From the NCBI GenBank assembly GCA_017459345.1, contig JAFUDC010000128.1:1-47377 (forward strand): 47,377 nt of DNA, written 5' to 3'. Below are positions 36,259-45,013 of the stretch, one piece after another. The number at the start of each line of letters is the position of its first letter. The stretch's first letter is position 1. The position numbers were made by a program, and so were the translations under genes. This DNA comes from Eubacterium sp. GTDB taxonomy: Bacteria > Bacillota > Clostridia > Lachnospirales > Lachnospiraceae. A model generated the notes under the pieces. It did no database searches and was not told the DNA's origin. It worked only from the letters and a program-made list of their open reading frames with translations.

Positions 36259-37974
36259 TTACACTTCCCATGGAATCACCACAAAATATCCATCTGTATC
36301 ATCTGAAATCCTGCCGATCCACTTCATTTCACTCTCCGCCCTGGCCTTAAGAAAAGGATCCCGGGTTCCGGCAGCCTTCAGGCTTGCATTGATCACCCAC
36401 CATTTTGAAGAAATCCCGGCCCGTTTCAGATCTTCTTCCAGTCGCCTGGCTTCGTAATAAGGAGTGGCTTCTGGAGGGTTAACAATAACAACCTCTGTTT
36501 CCTCCTGGTTTTTCAGTCTCGGAAGGAGCTTCTTTACCGATTCAGGGATATCAGCGTTGGAATGCTGCATTTCTCTGGCATAGCTTTCCGTGGAATTCAG
36601 AAGCAGTAAGGTATGGCCGGTCGGGGCAGTGTCTATGACCACAATCTGTTCTTCTGCCTTATCCACAATCTCAGCAAAAGCACGGAATACCGCAATCTCC
36701 TGGGTGCATGGGGAACGGAGGTCTTCCTTGATATAATCCAGGTCATCCTCAGAGATACCGCCGGCAATGGATTTTGCGATGACTTCGTTCTGGTATTTCA
36801 AAAGTTCTTTCTTCTCATCAATATTGCTGACTTCAATATCTCCAAAAGAAGACAGGTCCTCTGCCATGTGGCCGGCCGGGTCTGTGGTGGTCAGGTGGAC
36901 TTTACAGCCTTTTTCTGCTAATCCTTTTGCTATGCTGATGGATACCGATGTCTTTCCAACACCACCCTTTCCCATGGTAAATATAACCTTCTTATTCTTT
37001 TCGTAGAGGTCATCGATCAGCTTATCCAAATCAGGGAAGGAAACGTCCTGACTGAAAAGTCCTGAATCCGGCACTGCATCCTCCCTAAAGAGTTTCCTTA
37101 TATTATCGATCCCACTGACATTATAGGACCGCAGGGGAACCGTGTATAATGGCAAGTCCCGAATAGTTCCCGGGATTTGTTCTAGAGCTTCCTGCTGTTT
37201 TCGATAAAAGCTGGCAGAAGTCTGGTCCCCAGTGTTCTCACTCTCAAGGACTCCGTTCACGATGAGAATCTGGTTCCCTATACCCAGCTCAGAAAGCTCA
37301 CCAGATGCCCTGGCAGCCTCCATAAGTGGATCTTTCTCCGGCCGACTTACCAGCATCAATGTCGTGACGGTCTCATCGGATAATGTTTTCACTGCACGGG
37401 CATACATTTCCTTTTTATCGCCAAGCCCGGCCAGCTGGCCCAGACAGGATGCCCCATGTGTGCTCTCGTCAATAAAGTTATCCCAGGCAGAAGGAAGCTG
37501 AAGCATCCGCAGGGTATGTCCTGTGGGGGCCGTGTCAAAGATAATGTAATCATAAGAAGAGTTGATACCATCATCTGTAATAAAATGAGCAAATTCATTA
37601 AAGGATGCTATCTCCACCGTACAGGACCCGGAAAGCTGTTCCTCCATGTTGGCCACCACGGAATCCGGCAGTTTTCCGCGATAGGGTCCCACTACGGATT
37701 CCCTGTACTCTGCGGCAGCTTCCTCCGGGTTCAGGTTTGCCACTGTAAGCCCGGAAACCTCAGCAATCGGAAGTCCCTTGTTGTTAAGCTCCATCTCGAA
37801 TACATCCTGGAGGTTAGATGCCGGATCCGTGCTGATCAGGAAGACTTTCTTTCCCTGATCCGCAAGATAAACCGCCGTAGCGCAGGCGGTGGAAGTCTTC
37901 CCAACACCACCCTTCCCAGTAAAAAACATGTATTTTGTCAGTTCTGTCTTTTCAGGATTAAAAATCTGGCTCAT
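36259..37974 (-). CDS. arsA: Arsenite-stimulated ATPase ArsA (two-domain)
   Basis: A protein of about 571 residues with two tandem ATPase halves. Each has a P-loop (FTGKGGVGKTST; TMGKGGVGKTSV) and a DTAPTGHTL signature. Three metalloid-site cysteines are present, in GSCTVEIASF, HGASCLGQL and SPCTQEIAVF, matching Cys113/172/422 of the E. coli enzyme. It energises an arsenite pump. The start at MSQIFNPEK has AAGGG nine bases upstream, 11 bases after the arsD stop. No arsB or acr3 gene is in the window. Confidence 0.93.
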   Translation of the reverse strand: MSQIFNPEKTELTKYMFFTGKGGVGKTSTACATAVYLADQGKKVFLISTDPASNLQDVFEMELNNKGLPIAEVSGLTVANLNPEEAAAEYRESVVGPYRGKLPDSVVANMEEQLSGSCTVEIASFNEFAHFITDDGINSSYDYIIFDTAPTGHTLRMLQLPSAWDNFIDESTHGASCLGQLAGLGDKKEMYARAVKTLSDETVTTLMLVSRPEKDPLMEAARASGELSELGIGNQILIVNGVLESENTGDQTSASFYRKQQEALEQIPGTIRDLPLYTVPLRSYNVSGIDNIRKLFREDAVPDSGLFSQDVSFPDLDKLIDDLYEKNKKVIFTMGKGGVGKTSVSISIAKGLAEKGCKVHLTTTDPAGHMAEDLSSFGDIEVSNIDEKKELLKYQNEVIAKSIAGGISEDDLDYIKEDLRSPCTQEIAVFRAFAEIVDKAEEQIVVIDTAPTGHTLLLLNSTESYAREMQHSNADIPESVKKLLPRLKNQEETEVVIVNPPEATPYYEARRLEEDLKRAGISSKWWVINASLKAAGTRDPFLKARAESEMKWIGRISDDTDGYFVVIPWEV

Positions 37975-37985
37975 AATAAATACCC

Positions 37986-38348
37986 TTAGCAACAAGTATT
38001 CTTCTCGATTTCCGTCTTTACCATGGCATCCAGCAGTTCCTCCATGGATGCACCAGTCCAGGTCACCAGCTGTTCATTGGTCGGATATTCTCCGATCATC
38101 ACGACCTCCCCATCAACCAGGGTGATGGGGAGCGCATCTGCCCCCTTCTCCATCAGGACTGCATTGACTTTAGTATTATTCACATAGATATCCGGTTCAT
38201 CTGCAAGGTTGTGGCGGATGACCTCCTTCCCCGCCTTCTGAAGGTTATTAATGATGGTGGCGACCTTTAATAATTCCGGGTCCACTCCCGGTCCGCATAC
38301 TCCTGTGGAACAACACATAGCCGGGTCAAAAATCTCAACTTTACTCAT
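37986..38348 (-). CDS. arsD: Arsenic metallochaperone ArsD
   Basis: A 120-residue ArsD that delivers As(III) to ArsA. The cysteines Cys12, Cys13 and Cys18 in AMCCSTGVCGPGVD are all present, and a C-terminal NTCC vicinal pair is also kept. The start at MSKVEIFDP has AAGGAG six bases upstream. It is co-transcribed with arsA. Confidence 0.93.
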   Translation of the reverse strand: MSKVEIFDPAMCCSTGVCGPGVDPELLKVATIINNLQKAGKEVIRHNLADEPDIYVNNTKVNAVLMEKGADALPITLVDGEVVMIGEYPTNEQLVTWTGASMEELLDAMVKTEIEKNTCC

Positions 38349-38542
38349 AAGAAACTCCTTTCTCTCATGACAGTAACAGACTGTTGCAAAACTTGCATCG
38401 CCATGCCATCTGGCTTGCAAAAGTCAATAGACTACTAACACTCAAGTTTTACTTGCAAGTCTTATTGCCAAATAAATACCATTTTATGTTGATATAATTA
38501 TAGAAATAACTCTATGTATTGTGATCTAATCCAACTGTTAGA

Positions 38543-38755
38543 TTAGACCGCTTCTTCACCAGACTCACACACCACATCCACAGAACGGCAGATACAGTCA
38601 TCTGATACTGAGAATATTTCATGAAGGGCTTCCTCCAGTTTCTTGAGTTTCTCTGTGTTTAATGTGTAATACACATTCTGACCCTCACGTCTGGTAGTCA
38701 CAACTTTTGCATTACTGAGAACCTTAAGATCATGGGAAAGAGTCGGCTGCGTCAC
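38543..38755 (-). pseudogene. arsR: Truncated ArsR-type regulator
   Basis: Seventy residues starting at a GTG: TQPTLSHDLKVLSNAKVVTT contains the recognition helix and REGQNVYYTLNTEKL the wing, but the first 35 or so residues of a normal ArsR (helices 1-3) are missing. The frame is closed by a TAA four codons upstream. The C-terminus keeps DDCIC and VVC, possible arsenite ligands. The start overlaps the stop of the preceding unknown gene (ATGTGA), so a short protein might still be made. I regard it as a remnant of the ars operon regulator, cut when the upstream gene arrived. Confidence 0.65.
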
Positions 38756-39858: not shown

Positions 39859-40374
39859 TCAATCGATATCTGCCTCAAACAGCACTGTGGTATTTGCAGT
39901 ATCCAGAGCGTTCTGAGCCTTTGCCAGTTTATCCGAAACAGCTATGTACGCTTCCTCGGCCTTGGAGATTTCATAGTTAGCGTAGTCATACTCAATGAAA
40001 TTGTTGCCGCGGCCAAAGGTGCTCTGCACTCTCTCCTTCGGCAGTTTGCTCCGCATACCATCGAGCTGCTTCTTTCTCGAAGTAAGCTGAGGAATATAAA
40101 TCAGCATCTGATCGATGGTCATGTTGAATTCCGGAATCACGTAGGTGGAATTGAAGCAGTTAAGCGTGTGCTTCAGATTCCGGATTTTCTCCTCGAACTC
40201 TGTCAGTGCATCCTGTGTTGCCTGGAAATCATATGCAGGTCTGACGCTCTCCACATCCTCCTGGATGGCTGCTGTAAAGGTCTTCACTTTCTTCTCTCTT
40301 GCAAGTAATGCGTCTCGCTGCTCGTTCAGCTTCCTGAGCTGTTTTGCAGCAATCGCAGATGTAATCTTTGCCAT
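39859..40374 (-). CDS. DUF6847-like coiled-coil protein
   Basis: A 171-residue, largely helical protein: MAKITSAIAAKQLRKLNEQRDALLAREKK, then NMTIDQMLIYIPQLTSRKKQLDGMRSKLP and FIEYDYANYEISKAEEAYIAV. The pattern resembles a conserved Firmicutes family annotated, as far as I recall, DUF6847, of unknown function. Superficially it could be taken for a V-type ATPase subunit D, but the motifs differ and no other ATPase subunits are near. AAGGAG precedes the ATG. Confidence 0.7.
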   Translation of the reverse strand: MAKITSAIAAKQLRKLNEQRDALLAREKKVKTFTAAIQEDVESVRPAYDFQATQDALTEFEEKIRNLKHTLNCFNSTYVIPEFNMTIDQMLIYIPQLTSRKKQLDGMRSKLPKERVQSTFGRGNNFIEYDYANYEISKAEEAYIAVSDKLAKAQNALDTANTTVLFEADID

Positions 40375-40488: not shown

Positions 40489-40580
40489 GGTATCAAAACA
40501 GTATTAAGAAGGCAAAAAAAATCCCCCCAGACAGCTTATTTAAGCGCTCTGAGGGGATTATGGTCATTATTCGTACTCTA
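40489..40580 (-). repeat. Direct repeat at the guaA 3' end (right copy)
   Basis: The guaA stop codon with its last codons (VEYE), the following TGACC and the terminator match 243-330 in the same orientation. The gene end is intact here. Confidence 0.7.
40514..40557 (-). terminator. Terminator of the guaA-like gene
   Basis: AATCCCCTCAGA and TCTGGGGGGATT pair, with a nested AGC-TTAAATAA-GCT, followed on the minus strand by TTTTTTTT. Confidence 0.9.
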
Positions 40581-41766
40581 CCGTTGCCGGGGGCTTGGGT
40601 GTATAGTCGATCAGTACCCTGTTGATTCCCGGTACCTCGGTGATGATTCTCTGCACCAGATGGTCAATGAATTCCGGAGCAAAGTGCTCTACTGTCACTT
40701 CCATAACGTCTGTGGTATTGATAGCCCGGACGATGCAGGGCCAGTCAAAGGTCCTCTTGCCGTTTTTGATGCCAGTGGATTTGAAATCCGGTACCACGGT
40801 GAAGTACTGCCATACTTTTCCGGAGAGGCCATTCTTGGCGAATTCTTCCCTGAGGATAGCGTCAGATTCACGAACTGCTTCAAGACGGTCACGAGTTATG
40901 GCGCCTGGGCAGCGTACACCGAGACCGGGGCCTGGGAATGGCTGACGGTTTACCATGTCATCGGGCAGGCCCAGGGCTGCGCCTACCACACGTACTTCAT
41001 CCTTGAATAGAAGCTTCACGGGTTCTACCAGCTCAAGCTTGACCTCTTCCGGGAGTCCGCCCACATTGTGGTGAGCCTTGATGCCATCCTTGCTCTCCAG
41101 GATGTCCGGGTAAATGGTTCCCTGTCCCAGGAAGCCGATGCCGGAAAGCTTGGCTGCTTCCTCATCGAATACGTCGATAAACTCGCCGCCGATGATCTTT
41201 CTCTTGGTTTCCGGATCGGTCACGCCAGAAAGCTTATCCAGGAAGCGGTCTGTGGCGTCAATGTAGATCAGGTTGGCGCCCAGCTGCTTTTCAAATACAT
41301 CGATGACCTGCTGGCTTTCGCCCTTTCTCATAAGACCATGGTTTACATGGATGCAGGTGAGCTGCTTTCCGATAGCCTTGATCAGTAAGGCTGCCACTAC
41401 GGAGGAGTCAACTCCGCCGGAGAGAGCTAAGAGGACTCCGCCGTCACCGATCTGTTTCTGCAGGAGGTCCACCTGAGCTTCGATAAATGCGTCTGCCTGC
41501 TCCTTTGTTGTGATTCGCTCCATGGATTCCGGCCTCACATTCCCATCATCCATACCGGTAAATGTATAATTCTCAAACTGTGCCACTGCTGCCTTGAGGT
41601 CTTCATCTGCTACCGTATCTGCGCAGGTCACATCCGCCTGGCCGGCAATACGGCTTACCACTACCTTTTTTACGCCATCAATGGCCTCTAATGCTGCCTT
41701 TACCTTACCTTCACATTTTGGGCATCCCATGCCTTCGATATAGAGGGTTCTGCTTTTGTCCGCCAT
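40567..41766 (-). CDS. guaA: GMP synthase synthetase domain fused to a heavy-metal-associated domain
   Basis: A 399-residue protein. Residues 5-72 form a heavy-metal-associated domain with the metal motif GMGCPKC (Cys15, Cys18). From about residue 80 it is the ATP-pyrophosphatase and dimerisation part of GMP synthase: SGGVDSS (116-122), GQGTIYPD, HHNVGGLPE, EPVKLLFKDEVR and RQPFPGPGLGVR, ending DYTPKPPATVEYE. Normal bacterial GuaA (about 515 residues) has a glutamine amidotransferase at this N-terminus; it is absent, so the enzyme would need free ammonia or a separate amidotransferase to make GMP from XMP. AGGAGG lies before the ATG. It might be a second, specialised guaA. Confidence 0.9.
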   Translation of the reverse strand: MADKSRTLYIEGMGCPKCEGKVKAALEAIDGVKKVVVSRIAGQADVTCADTVADEDLKAAVAQFENYTFTGMDDGNVRPESMERITTKEQADAFIEAQVDLLQKQIGDGGVLLALSGGVDSSVVAALLIKAIGKQLTCIHVNHGLMRKGESQQVIDVFEKQLGANLIYIDATDRFLDKLSGVTDPETKRKIIGGEFIDVFDEEAAKLSGIGFLGQGTIYPDILESKDGIKAHHNVGGLPEEVKLELVEPVKLLFKDEVRVVGAALGLPDDMVNRQPFPGPGLGVRCPGAITRDRLEAVRESDAILREEFAKNGLSGKVWQYFTVVPDFKSTGIKNGKRTFDWPCIVRAINTTDVMEVTVEHFAPEFIDHLVQRIITEVPGINRVLIDYTPKPPATVEYE

Positions 41767-41886
41767 GTTTCTTCTCCTCCTGTAGATTAATTTCGGTCAT
41801 TAAATGTTCTTATAGAGTTGCATTCATTGAGTTTCTTTTCGGTTTAATAATATCTCATTTACTTCCGTCCTGTAAACCACCTTTTT

Positions 41887-43335
41887 TCACATTGCCCCTG
41901 CAATCTGCCTTGCCACGTAAACTCCGCTGGCCGAGGCATGGGACAGGGAATGGGTAACTCCGCTGCCGTCACCGATGATATAAAGTCCCGGGTAATTGCT
42001 CATGAGATTCTTATCCAGCTTGACTTCCATGTTGTAGAACTTGACTTCCACACCATAAAGAAGGGTGTCATCGTTGGCCGTACCTGGGGCAATCTTATCC
42101 AGGGCGTAGATCATCTCGATGATGCCATCAAGAATCCGCTTGGGCAGCACCAGGGACAGGTCTCCCGGTGTCGCAGAAAGGGTAGGCCTGACGGTACATT
42201 CCGCAATACGGGTGGGATTGCTGCGCCGGCCTCGCTCCAGGTCTCCGAATCGCTGGACGATTACGCCGCCCCCAAGCATGTTGGAGAGCTTTGCGATGCT
42301 CTCTCCGTAATCATTACTGTCCTTAAAGGGCTCGGAAAAATGTTTGGAAACCAGAAGAGCAAAGTTGGTGTTGTCGGTCTTCTTTTCCGGGTCTTCGAAG
42401 GAGTGGCCGTTTACCGTCACAATGCCGTTGGTGTTTTCGTTCACCACGATACCGTTGGGATTCATGCAGAAGGTCCTGACCGCATCTTCAAACTTCTCCG
42501 TGCGGTAGGTAATCTTGCTCTCATAAAGGGCATCGGTCAGATGGGAGAAAATCACGGCGGGAAGCTCCACCCGGACGCCGATATCCACCCGGTTCGACTT
42601 GGTGGGAATATTCAGTTCTTTACAGATGGTCTCCATCCATTTACTGCCGCTGCGGCCCACGGAGACGATGCACTGATCACATTCTGCCTGACCTTCATCG
42701 TATATCACTCTGAATCCCTGACCCGACTTATTCTGGTTGGCTGACGGATCCCCTTCTGCCCCCTCCTTTTCCGGTTCAGGCACGGCGGCCCCTTTCCCCA
42801 TCAGCTCAATTTTTCTCACCGGTGTATGGAAATGAAAGTCAACATGGTCTTTCATCTCATCATAGAGCTTCTCCAGCACCACATAGTTGATATCCGTACC
42901 CAGATGGCGTACTGATGCCTCAAGAAGGTTCAGCTTATTCTGCATGCAGAGTTTTTTAAACTCGCTGCCTGCTGTGGAGTAGAGGCGGGTGTTCTCTCCA
43001 CCGTGAGAAACATTAATCTGATCTACATATTTCATCAGTTCCAGGGCTTCTTCCTTGCCGATATACTCATACAGGGTTCCGCCGAAATCATTGGTAATAT
43101 TATACTTTCCATCAGAAAATGCACCGGCGCCGCCGAACCCGTTCATGATGGCGCAGGTTTTACATTTGATGCAGGACTTGATCTTCTTTCCATCGATGGG
43201 ACAATGTCTCTTCTCCAGGGGGTATCCGCTTTCAAATACGCCCACCTTGAGATTCGGATTCAACTTCATCAATTCGTAAGCAGAGAAGATTCCGCCCGGA
43301 CCGGCACCGATGATGATGACATCATATTTTGTCAT
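41887..43335 (-). CDS. FAD-dependent dehydrogenase (COG2509-type)
   Basis: A 482-residue flavoprotein. The N-terminal FAD loop is DVIIIGAGPGGIFSAYEL, followed by a cysteine-containing stretch (PIDGKKIKSCIKCKTCAIMNGFGGAGAFSDGK), and the C-terminal FAD site is YPGLYIIGDGSGVTHSLSHASASGVYVARQ. A charged, low-complexity insert (PEPEKEGAEGDPSANQNKSG) interrupts the middle. The CxxC pair suggests a metal or cluster site. This family is common in anaerobes and its function is undefined. TGGAGC precedes the ATG, 120 bases after the guaA-like gene begins in the same direction. Confidence 0.83.
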   Translation of the reverse strand: MTKYDVIIIGAGPGGIFSAYELMKLNPNLKVGVFESGYPLEKRHCPIDGKKIKSCIKCKTCAIMNGFGGAGAFSDGKYNITNDFGGTLYEYIGKEEALELMKYVDQINVSHGGENTRLYSTAGSEFKKLCMQNKLNLLEASVRHLGTDINYVVLEKLYDEMKDHVDFHFHTPVRKIELMGKGAAVPEPEKEGAEGDPSANQNKSGQGFRVIYDEGQAECDQCIVSVGRSGSKWMETICKELNIPTKSNRVDIGVRVELPAVIFSHLTDALYESKITYRTEKFEDAVRTFCMNPNGIVVNENTNGIVTVNGHSFEDPEKKTDNTNFALLVSKHFSEPFKDSNDYGESIAKLSNMLGGGVIVQRFGDLERGRRSNPTRIAECTVRPTLSATPGDLSLVLPKRILDGIIEMIYALDKIAPGTANDDTLLYGVEVKFYNMEVKLDKNLMSNYPGLYIIGDGSGVTHSLSHASASGVYVARQIAGAM

Positions 43336-43451: not shown

Positions 43452-44945
43452 TCATTCTGCCTTTTTACATGCTTTTCTGAGTGCTGCTACCACAATCTTT
43501 AATGCCTTTATTCTGGCATATTTCTTGTCTACAGATTCCAGAATATGCCATGGCGCAAAGGAGGTATTGGTCTTTTGCAGCATCTCGTTGATCGCTTCCT
43601 CATAGAGATCCCATTTCTCCCGGTTTCTCCAGTCCTCATCCGTGATCTTCCACTGTTTTTCCGGGGTGTTCTGCCGGTCTGTAAACCGGGCCAGCTGGGT
43701 ATCGCTGTCAATCTGCACCCAGAACTTGAGAACCACTGCACCCCAGTCTGTCAGCTCTTTCTCAAATTCATTTATTTCGTTATATGCTCTCTGCCAGTCA
43801 TTCTCCGAGCAGAAGCCCTCCAGCCGCTCCACCATGACCCGGCCGTACCAGGTCCGGTCAAAGACGGCAATATGCCCCGTCTTGGGCAGCCGGTTCCAGA
43901 AACGCCAGAGGAAGAACCTGGCCTTCTCGTGGGGCTCGGGGCTGGCAATAGGATGGACAATATAGCCTCTGGGATCCAGAGCCCCGGTAATCCTCTTGAT
44001 ATTTCCTCCCTTTCCTGCCGCGTCCATCCCCTCATAGGCGATAACCACAGGAATCTTCTTGCGGTAAAGTTCATAGTGGAGGTCCCGGAGTTCTCCCTGG
44101 AGACGCTTCAGTTCTTCCTTATAGTCCTTGGGATCGATGGTCTTGGAAAGATCCAAATCCTTAAGATATGGTATGGGCTCCAGAGGAAATGTATTCTGCA
44201 GAATCGGAACTGCCAGTGCATGATTTTTCAAAGCGGTGTCAATACCCTGAGTCAGATAGCGGAGCACCTGCAGAGCCGCCCACTTCTTATCCTTGGCATC
44301 AATGATATACCAGGGGGCTGTAGGCCGGTTGGTATCGGAGAGATACTGCTCGTAAACCTCCAGGCAATCGTCATAATGCCTGTTCTCCCACAGGTCCTTA
44401 TCATCCACCCTCCAGGAGGTATTCTTATCAGAAGCCAGGGCAGAAAGGCGCTTCTTCTGCTCCTTCTTCCCAATCTGGAAGAAGAACTTCATGACCAGAT
44501 AGCCATTGTCCGTCAGCTGTCTTTCCGTGGTGACGATACTGTGGATCTTATGTCTGTAATCCTTCTGTGTATAAGTTCCATTCAGAACTCCTCCGGTCAC
44601 TTCCTCCATCCAGCACGTATCGAAAAATTTGAATTTGCCTGCCTCCGGCAGCTCCACCAGATAGCGGTAGAGAAATGGCTTTCTCTTCTCCTCCGGGGTG
44701 GGCTCCGCCTCCATCTTGGCCACGGAGAAAAATCTTGGATCGATATCTTTGATGACTTCTCCCAATACACTGCCCTTGCCGGCAGCACCCCAGCCTTCAA
44801 AGATGATCATTACCGGAAGCTTTGCTTCCTTGATCTTAAGCTGAAATCCCGACAGCTTTGCCCTCTGGGCAGCCATCTCCTCTTTCAGGGCTTCCCTGGA
44901 TGGTTTTTCTGTTTTAACAAAATGTTTAATCAGATTATCTCTCAT
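43452..44945 (-). CDS. Two-domain PPK2 polyphosphate:AMP phosphotransferase
   Basis: About 497 residues with two PPK2 domains. The first P-loop is FEGWGAAGKGSVLGEV near residue 50; the second, FEG-like YEGMDAAGKGGNIKRITGALDPRGY, is near 305 and is followed by VFDRTWYGRVMVERLEGFC. The second domain keeps the lid and DRTWYGR residues, while the first has DTCWMEEV at that place and is probably inactive, as in characterised Pap enzymes. It would make ADP from AMP and polyphosphate. The start at MRDNLIKHFVKTE is chosen for the GGGGGG just upstream. A long antisense frame over it is a shadow. Confidence 0.88.
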   Translation of the reverse strand: MRDNLIKHFVKTEKPSREALKEEMAAQRAKLSGFQLKIKEAKLPVMIIFEGWGAAGKGSVLGEVIKDIDPRFFSVAKMEAEPTPEEKRKPFLYRYLVELPEAGKFKFFDTCWMEEVTGGVLNGTYTQKDYRHKIHSIVTTERQLTDNGYLVMKFFFQIGKKEQKKRLSALASDKNTSWRVDDKDLWENRHYDDCLEVYEQYLSDTNRPTAPWYIIDAKDKKWAALQVLRYLTQGIDTALKNHALAVPILQNTFPLEPIPYLKDLDLSKTIDPKDYKEELKRLQGELRDLHYELYRKKIPVVIAYEGMDAAGKGGNIKRITGALDPRGYIVHPIASPEPHEKARFFLWRFWNRLPKTGHIAVFDRTWYGRVMVERLEGFCSENDWQRAYNEINEFEKELTDWGAVVLKFWVQIDSDTQLARFTDRQNTPEKQWKITDEDWRNREKWDLYEEAINEMLQKTNTSFAPWHILESVDKKYARIKALKIVVAALRKACKKAE

Positions 44946-45013
44946 CGTTTCCCCCCAATACATTTTTTCTCATATATTTTTCTATTACATATTTTCCCAT
45001 TGTGTTTTTTTCA

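Follow-up and report, generated by a model that had tools for sequence, protein, structure and literature searches.

A heavy-metal-associated domain fused to a GMP synthetase that lacks its glutamine amidotransferase, within a paralogue family of gut Clostridia

Introduction

De novo synthesis of GMP in bacteria is usually described as a glutamine-dependent process carried out on one chain. The review PMC10526850 presents the two units of the bacterial GMP synthetase as domains of one chain, and the alignment of PMC9312489 kept sequences with the canonical domains. What, then, is the product of a gene that joins a heavy-metal-associated (HMA) domain to a GMP synthetase without a glutamine amidotransferase (GATase)? 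Such a gene lies in the 47,377-nucleotide stretch of Eubacterium sp. DNA analysed here as a whole (the window). The original prediction, made from the sequence alone, held that the HMA domain stands there instead of the GATase, and considered a metal-controlled or ammonia-dependent enzyme. Here we ask whether the fusion is real, from what it descends and what its product may do.

Results

The fusion gene

The window gene encodes an HMA domain that continues in frame into an entire GMP synthetase core, with its catalytic and dimerisation parts but without a GATase (Table 1), which confirms the predicted architecture. Besides the HMA family PF00403, the protein matched NCBIfam guaA_Cterm (TIGR00884) at residues 94–399 (409.6 bits, cut-off 338.75) and Pfam GMP_synt_C (PF00958) at residues 307–398 (101.6 bits, cut-off 27), and the motif GMGCPKC occupies residues 12–18. 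A Pfam scan of the protein gave no match to the class-I GATase family PF00117. The full guaA model NF000848 aligned solely via model positions 190–512; the GATase part is therefore absent, as had been claimed, and the protein does not carry the Cys-His-Glu triad by which membership of the glutamine-hydrolysing GuaA enzymes is judged. The P-loop of N-type ATP pyrophosphatases (ATPPases), the catalytic Asp and Glu, the lid motif K-HHN and the KDEVR motif are all present, as are the XMP contacts, Mj R102, R249, R294, K302, E308 and E310 corresponding to R189, R338, R383, K391, E397 and E399 of the window protein.

Table 1. Features of the fusion gene and its upstream neighbours, in coordinates of the window
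Feature	Position	Strand	Remarks
HMA–GMP synthetase fusion gene	40567..41766	(-)	399 aa plus stop; open reading frame without internal stop
HMA domain, residues 7–63	41578..41748	(-)	Pfam PF00403, 44.2 bits, cut-off 24.8
CxxC metal site, Cys15–Cys18	41713..41724	(-)	both Cys invariant in 5/5 fusions
Tyr67	41566..41568	(-)	invariant in 5/5 fusions
Junction/linker, residues 72–93	41488..41553	(-)	Met72 aligns with the start of HMA-free short forms
ATP pyrophosphatase part, residues 94–305	40852..41487	(-)	P-loop SGGVDSS, D221/E224, lid motif IKAHHN
Dimerisation/XMP-binding part, residues 307–399	40570..40848	(-)	PF00958
Shine-Dalgarno sequence AGGAGGAG	41774..41781	(-)	spacing of 7 nt to the HMA start codon; read from the sequence
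Intrinsic-terminator-like hairpin	40508..40566	(-)	directly 3′ of the stop codon; 12-pair outer stem
FAD-dependent protein	41887..43335	(-)	120 nt upstream of the fusion gene; also adjoins the fusion in G004
Polyphosphate:AMP phosphotransferase (PPK2)	43452..44963	(-)	two genes upstream of the fusion gene

Since a Shine-Dalgarno sequence precedes the HMA start codon and none was seen upstream of the internal Met72, the HMA part is very probably translated. The hairpin behind the stop codon has a folding energy of −25.3 kcal/mol (z = −4.44) and a run of eight U, two of these within the stem; a consensus terminator scan, which covers loops of 3–8 only, did not list it. A riboswitch search of the window and of three fusion loci gave no Rfam match at the gathering score.

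The same in-frame fusion was found in four other assemblies. Two, of the same genus (G004 and G023, 90% and 87% identity to the window protein), came from a 99-genome sample that also holds the genome of the window, G000. A third (G287, 79%) came from 397 genomes of the window's family, in which only G000 has the fusion besides, and the fourth (L039, uncultured Clostridiales RUG467, 78%) was among 80 loci kept of at least 590 from a genome contig collection. No fusion outside G000 was found in 392 genomes of the order or in 398 genomes of the phylum, all these sets being samples that overlap one another. The fusion is thus rare, an offshoot of a large GATase-less paralogue family. A frameshift or an assembly join of two genes, foreseen as a possible source of the frame, is practically out of the question, as is a chance open reading frame, because the same in-frame fusion, divergent in sequence, recurs in five assemblies and the fusion genes bear marks of purifying selection. 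In the open-access full-text literature searched, we found no description of an HMA–GMP synthetase, in agreement with the earlier statement that no characterised protein has this design, and none of a GATase-less bacterial GMP synthetase family.

A GATase-less paralogue family

The fusion belongs to a large paralogue family of gut Clostridia that also occurs in records named Bacteroides and Parabacteroides. Other members are of two types, one (~430 aa) with a GATase remnant without the Cys-His-Glu triad, the other (~327 aa) with no GATase. We compared 142 paralogues with 29 canonical guaA cores, leaving out pieces with a core of fewer than 290 residues. The paralogues comprised five HMA fusions, 113 proteins without GATase and 24 remnant forms, a 113/24 split that rests on score and N-terminal length (the start choice of our script misjudged several N-termini, and L201 and L175 were assigned by hand). 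The family is separate from the canonical cores by bit score, as complete paralogues reached at least 415 bits against the core and canonical enzymes at most 338, two paralogue fragments scoring lower; in a FastTree tree the paralogues were monophyletic, but with low branch support (0.27). Among the 397 genomes of the family, 117 matched at E ≤ 1e-100, six of them with canonical enzymes (52–54% identity, full-length-type matches), and at least 111 carry a paralogue.

Alignment of 13 remnant forms with five canonical enzymes revealed that ~85 N-terminal and 25 C-terminal GATase residues survive and that the segments with the catalytic Cys (CYG) and with the His and Glu (HPE) are missing. Remnant forms, which are annotated or score as 'glutamine-hydrolyzing GMP synthase', include L013–L017, L176, L178, L180–L184, L197, L199–L201 and others, and are present in records named Bacteroides finegoldii and Parabacteroides distasonis. 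The P. distasonis record has the remnant form directly behind a full guaA, as do a Subdoligranulum record and G1110. Such a tandem, with a full-length-type guaA just upstream of the remnant form, was seen in three loci (L201:2054-4933, L199:2497-4939 and L174:78-2436).

All nine family members scanned exceeded the cut-off of the NCBI model 'glutamine-hydrolyzing GMP synthase'; weak matches of family members to LarE and other PP-loop models merely mirror the shared fold. Ruminant gut sites or reindeer are mentioned in the titles of 23 of the 80 named loci listed, which are a similarity-ranked sample and no habitat test. Ammonia is abundant in the ruminant gut, and the bacterium that hosts the window gene is probably an animal gut dweller too. 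In IMG/VR, three loci matched, two remnant forms (L176 and L178) and an end piece (L177). A phage collection yielded 17 matching records; the ten matches listed are at most 56% identical and canonical-like, and one record outside these ten was counted at 60–80% identity. By eye, an integrase-like gene lies near the paralogue in six loci (L051, L056, L088, L094, L097 and L131), several of which also have an XRE-like regulator and a small mobilisation-like gene. The idea that the paralogue gene marks an attachment site was rejected, as its 3′ end was repeated downstream, within the available flanks, in 0 of 73 copies tested.

Canonical GuaA and GATases in paralogue-bearing genomes

G000 contains two GMP_synt_C matches, the fusion and a canonical GuaA of full length with its GATase (524 aa, contig C48); the second full-length guaA that the original prediction had proposed to look for thus exists. 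The guaA_Nterm model TIGR00888 exceeded its cut-off in G000 solely within this gene, and none of the six class-I GATase matches of the genome lies on the window's contig, C97. A split GATase partner was therefore rejected for G000, and the earlier claim that no separate GATase gene accompanies the fusion holds for the entire contig. A GATase gene upstream in close relatives, which had been considered as well, did not turn up: none was seen adjoining the five fusion genes (by eye, with Pfam for the window's own neighbours), two of the five contigs stopping within ~230 bases downstream.

Paralogue-bearing genomes without a second full GMP_synt_C match number 21 of 110. They include G446, which besides the paralogue has only a 51-aa GMP_synt_C piece, and G125 (61% complete), both of whose GMP_synt_C matches are paralogues. 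IMPDH exceeded its cut-off in 17 of the 21. In the 13 of them that were scanned no guaA-type GATase reached the cut-off of 172 bits (best 123 bits), the same model giving 243–251 bits in three control genomes, and ten small GATases from paralogue-only genomes proved to be nine HisH and one below-cut-off match to a gamma-glutamyl-GABA hydrolase model. Both genomes sampled of genera g122, g131 and g140 were paralogue-only; in g74 and g93 one of two had a canonical copy.

By itself this distribution looked like strong phylogenetic complementation, but it failed the control; the P values calculated for it presuppose random loss and are not to be relied on. Ten of ~61 paralogue-free genomes in the 99-genome sample (at least 90% complete) have no GMP synthetase at all (16%); within the window's family these are 4 of 30. 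Seven of the ten have IMPDH over the cut-off (G007, G026, G059, G060, G074, G082 and G086, with completeness of 90–100%). The canonical copy was missing from 15 of 96 paralogue carriers, equal to the control's 16% (the filters differ slightly). As canonical guaA is missing just as often from paralogue-free assemblies, the paralogue-only genomes are no proof of function.

Conservation of active-site residues

Residues tied to ATP, XMP and the formation of adenyl-XMP are discussed in parts of PMC10526850 and PMC4673825. In all 142 paralogues, including the five fusions, the P-loop, the equivalents of Pf D371 and E374, the lid K-HHN and KDEVR are kept, as are the equivalents of Mj R102, R249, R294, K302 and E308, and the Arg at the xanthine O6 is unchanged. 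The last Glu, equivalent to Mj E310, is kept in 140 of 142 paralogues and falls in an alignment gap in the other two, and a single paralogue has H for L immediately before the P-loop SGG. The lid Ser/Thr is replaced by Ala in 5/5 fusions and in 114 of the 137 other paralogues; this change had a marginal effect in the P. falciparum enzyme, according to the mutant data given in part of PMC10526850. Twenty-five positions set the two groups apart, paralogues and canonical enzymes each being fixed (at least 85%) for a residue of their own. Among the changes fixed in 142/142 paralogues, E. coli F259 to H and D261 to N flank the adenine-binding V260, and E. coli residue 412, changed to C, stands beside R411. 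Moreover, many fixed positions in the dimerisation region differ from the canonical enzyme. Because family-specific changes are fixed in all 142 proteins, they speak for a maintained, specialised enzyme rather than decay; those beside the adenine site could signal altered specificity. The Gln of the WQYF segment is also kept in all 142, and we take it, assuming the numbering, to be the ribose-contacting Gln described in part of PMC11448925.

Origin and neighbourhood of the fusion gene

By sequence, the closest solved relatives are the E. coli and other two-domain GMP synthetases and the archaeal subunit B and, for the HMA domain, CopZ. Residues 95–399 align with the two-domain E. coli GuaA (1gpm) at 318.8 bits with catalytic and XMP residues kept, whereas the fusion differs in lacking the GATase, in its extra HMA domain and in the family-specific fixed residues. 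With the archaeal subunit B (6jp9, 2dpl) it shares a stand-alone ATPPase chain and segments of the type WQYF..V.D.K.TG; the archaeal type, however, has a partner GATase subunit (GuaAa), unlike G000 with its guaA_Nterm match confined to canonical guaA. The GATase remnant in relatives suggests that the ancestor was a two-domain enzyme. Since remnant forms exist and Met72 of the fusion aligns with the first residue of short forms (L007, for example), a stepwise loss of the GATase in HMA-free paralogues appears to have come first, and the addition of the HMA domain in front of the old start Met second. The idea that the HMA domain simply replaced the GATase does not survive this comparison, as the GATase is eroded or lost in paralogues that have no HMA domain.

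In a quick clade test on 66 of 173 aligned rows, for a group named after a first tree had been seen, a single clade of the five fusions was not rejected for residues 93–305 (constrained tree 24 log units above the free search, p-AU 0.87) and was rejected for residues 306–399 (p-AU 0.0057), where the proteins of the window, G004 and G023 cluster with other short forms. Both results are explained if the fusion arose once, as supported by the first two thirds of the gene, and if recombination with another family branch then replaced the last third (window 40570–40851), as is probable for the window's genus. A first FastTree tree with weak supports hinted at two separate HMA fusions; this was set aside, since the first two thirds are compatible with a single clade.

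The gene order PPK2–FAD-dependent protein–fusion (Table 1) was found in the window and G004 only (84% and 88% identity for the FAD and PPK2 proteins) and is absent from G023; as a suggestion from these two loci, a PPK2-type kinase could recycle the AMP made by a GMP synthetase. No conserved operon was seen, the largest neighbour cluster covering 16 of 97 loci (the clusters are unannotated; 97 loci were the input, and the 80 rows kept are those in which a simple gene picker retained the paralogue). The 171-aa protein adjoining the fusion gene (window 39859–40374) matched nothing in Pfam or NCBIfam at E 0.001. A few kilobases downstream, at window 36259–38755, lie arsA and arsD (model matches) and a 70-aa ArsR-like frame (by eye); ArsD and ArsA genes are absent among the neighbours listed for the G004 fusion.

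The HMA domain

PF00403 exceeded its gathering cut-off in 5/5 fusions. Like CopZ and the C-terminal HMA modules of CopA-like proteins, the domain has the MxCxxC motif and a Tyr in the last loop (Tyr67, which we take to occupy the position of the CopZ loop tyrosine); it differs from the HMA modules compared in its GMGCxxC motif, where they have GMTC or GMMC, and from CopZ and CopA in being joined to an enzyme of nucleotide biosynthesis. The CopZ model NF047957 scored 41.5 bits in the window protein against a cut-off of 85, and the domain is therefore not a CopZ. In a comparison with 14 HMA loci from the 99-genome sample and one more, the best non-fusion matches (46–58 bits) were C-terminal modules of longer frames, two of which, in G000 and G004, read by eye as P-type ATPases (copper specificity is assumed). 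The fusion HMA domain matched the C-terminal HMA of the G004 ATPase at 50 bits and its N-terminal HMA at 14 bits, and stand-alone HMA frames scored 31–36 bits.

Within the genus, HMA identity is 55–68% against 93–95% in the core, indicating rapid drift of the HMA domain. Across the five fusions no more than 25 of the 76 N-terminal positions are invariant, and these include G12, M13, G14, C15, C18, E19 and Y67. For two same-genus pairs, dN/dS of the HMA domain was 0.13 and 0.21, rough values with saturated dS, the third pair giving no usable dS. The domain is thus probably a copper-type HMA domain under constraint, for which we infer a Cu(I)-linked role.

Discussion

Our results bear out the architecture that the original prediction described, but not a simple exchange of GATase for HMA, and so support it in part. 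The reading that explains the whole best, and that we favour with some though by no means full confidence, is a glutamine-independent second GMP synthetase to which one lineage has added an HMA domain. We infer the GMP synthetase activity, the ammonia substrate, the metal and the role of the HMA domain from sequence. The fusion would bind ATP and XMP and form adenyl-XMP, which would be aminated by free ammonia to give GMP, AMP and PPi, a route that the ATPPase domain or subunit of known GMP synthetases also takes when isolated. External ammonia is accepted by ATPPase subunits and by two-domain enzymes, as stated in part of PMC10526850, and the sections of PMC4673825 on the isolated Plasmodium ATPPase domain report that ammonia-dependent activity was kept, with a 5.9-fold lower kcat and a 2.7-fold lower Km for NH4Cl. 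Against this reading stand the canonical guaA that the host also has and the high Km of canonical enzymes for ammonia, 10.8–174 mM in part of the table of PMC10526850. As isolated ATPPase subunits and domains use free ammonia, the paralogue family and the fusion are most economically, and most probably, read as ammonia-dependent GMP synthetases; the ammonia dependence considered earlier is plausible on the residues, which fit.

The family would have arisen from a two-domain GuaA by loss of the GATase, and in a small lineage a C-terminal-type HMA domain of P-type (copper) ATPases would have been joined to the gene immediately 5′ of its former start codon. The HMA domain would most likely bind Cu(I) via Cys15 and Cys18, and Cu(I)-HMA might either tune the enzyme to copper stress or shield it. 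With the GATase the enzyme has also shed a reactive cysteine, and this may be relevant when soft metals impose stress. It is possible, though doubtful, that the HMA domain has no metal function and is a fold or partner module that merely caps the former GATase site: outside the motif it drifts fast, nearly all members of the family manage without it, and by eye no copper gene is common to the fusion neighbourhoods. However, the Cys pair, the GMGC motif and Tyr67 are invariant in 5/5 proteins despite the small number of invariant positions around them, and the nearest HMA kin are modules of P-type ATPases. A bolder version, rather unlikely in our estimate, makes the fusion a metal-gated glutamine-independent GMP synthetase, in which Cu(I)-HMA at the GATase dock would control ammonia access or the lid so that copper switches GMP synthesis, and its HMA-free relatives a widespread ammonia-only class annotated as 'glutamine-hydrolyzing'.

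A dependence on canonical GuaA appears unlikely. Active sites of GMP synthetase span two subunits, and both chains contribute to the XMP site, according to parts of PMC4673825 and PMC10526850; a GATase-less chain might thus act only in mixed dimers, tuning or titrating GuaA. The remnant forms directly after a full guaA in L174, L199 and L201 would suit such a role, as would the full guaA that stands alongside the paralogue in 14 of the 16 paralogue-bearing genomes of the 99-genome sample. Against it, only 3 of the 80 named loci listed (L097, L114 and L117) hold a canonical guaA in their flanks, many fixed residues of the dimerisation region are not those of canonical GuaA, and a second full copy is missing from 21 of 110 genomes with the paralogue, a weak point given the control.

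Quite improbable, too, is a PP-loop enzyme with a new substrate, be it another nucleotide or a nucleophile other than ammonia, such as sulfur on the CxxC of the HMA domain. The H and N that flank the adenine-binding Val, and the Cys next to E. coli R411, found in every paralogue, could be read in this way; yet the XMP contacts examined, including the Arg at the xanthine O6, are unchanged, the guaA_Cterm model was exceeded in 9/9 proteins scanned, and no neighbour is conserved across the family.

If the preferred reading of a glutamine-independent GMP synthetase is correct, a bacterial family that sheds its glutaminase would show how GMP synthetase is re-tuned, perhaps to ammonia-rich habitats, and glutamine analogues that target the GATase cysteine should leave its members unaffected. 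The database annotation of the family as 'glutamine-hydrolyzing' likely misleads, given that all nine members scanned pass the NCBI model. A metal domain on GMP synthetase would couple metal handling with purine synthesis, and in the open-access literature we found no described case of a metal domain linked to a purine-synthesis enzyme of this kind. The main interest lies in the hidden GATase-less family, of which the metal-domain fusion is the most unusual member.
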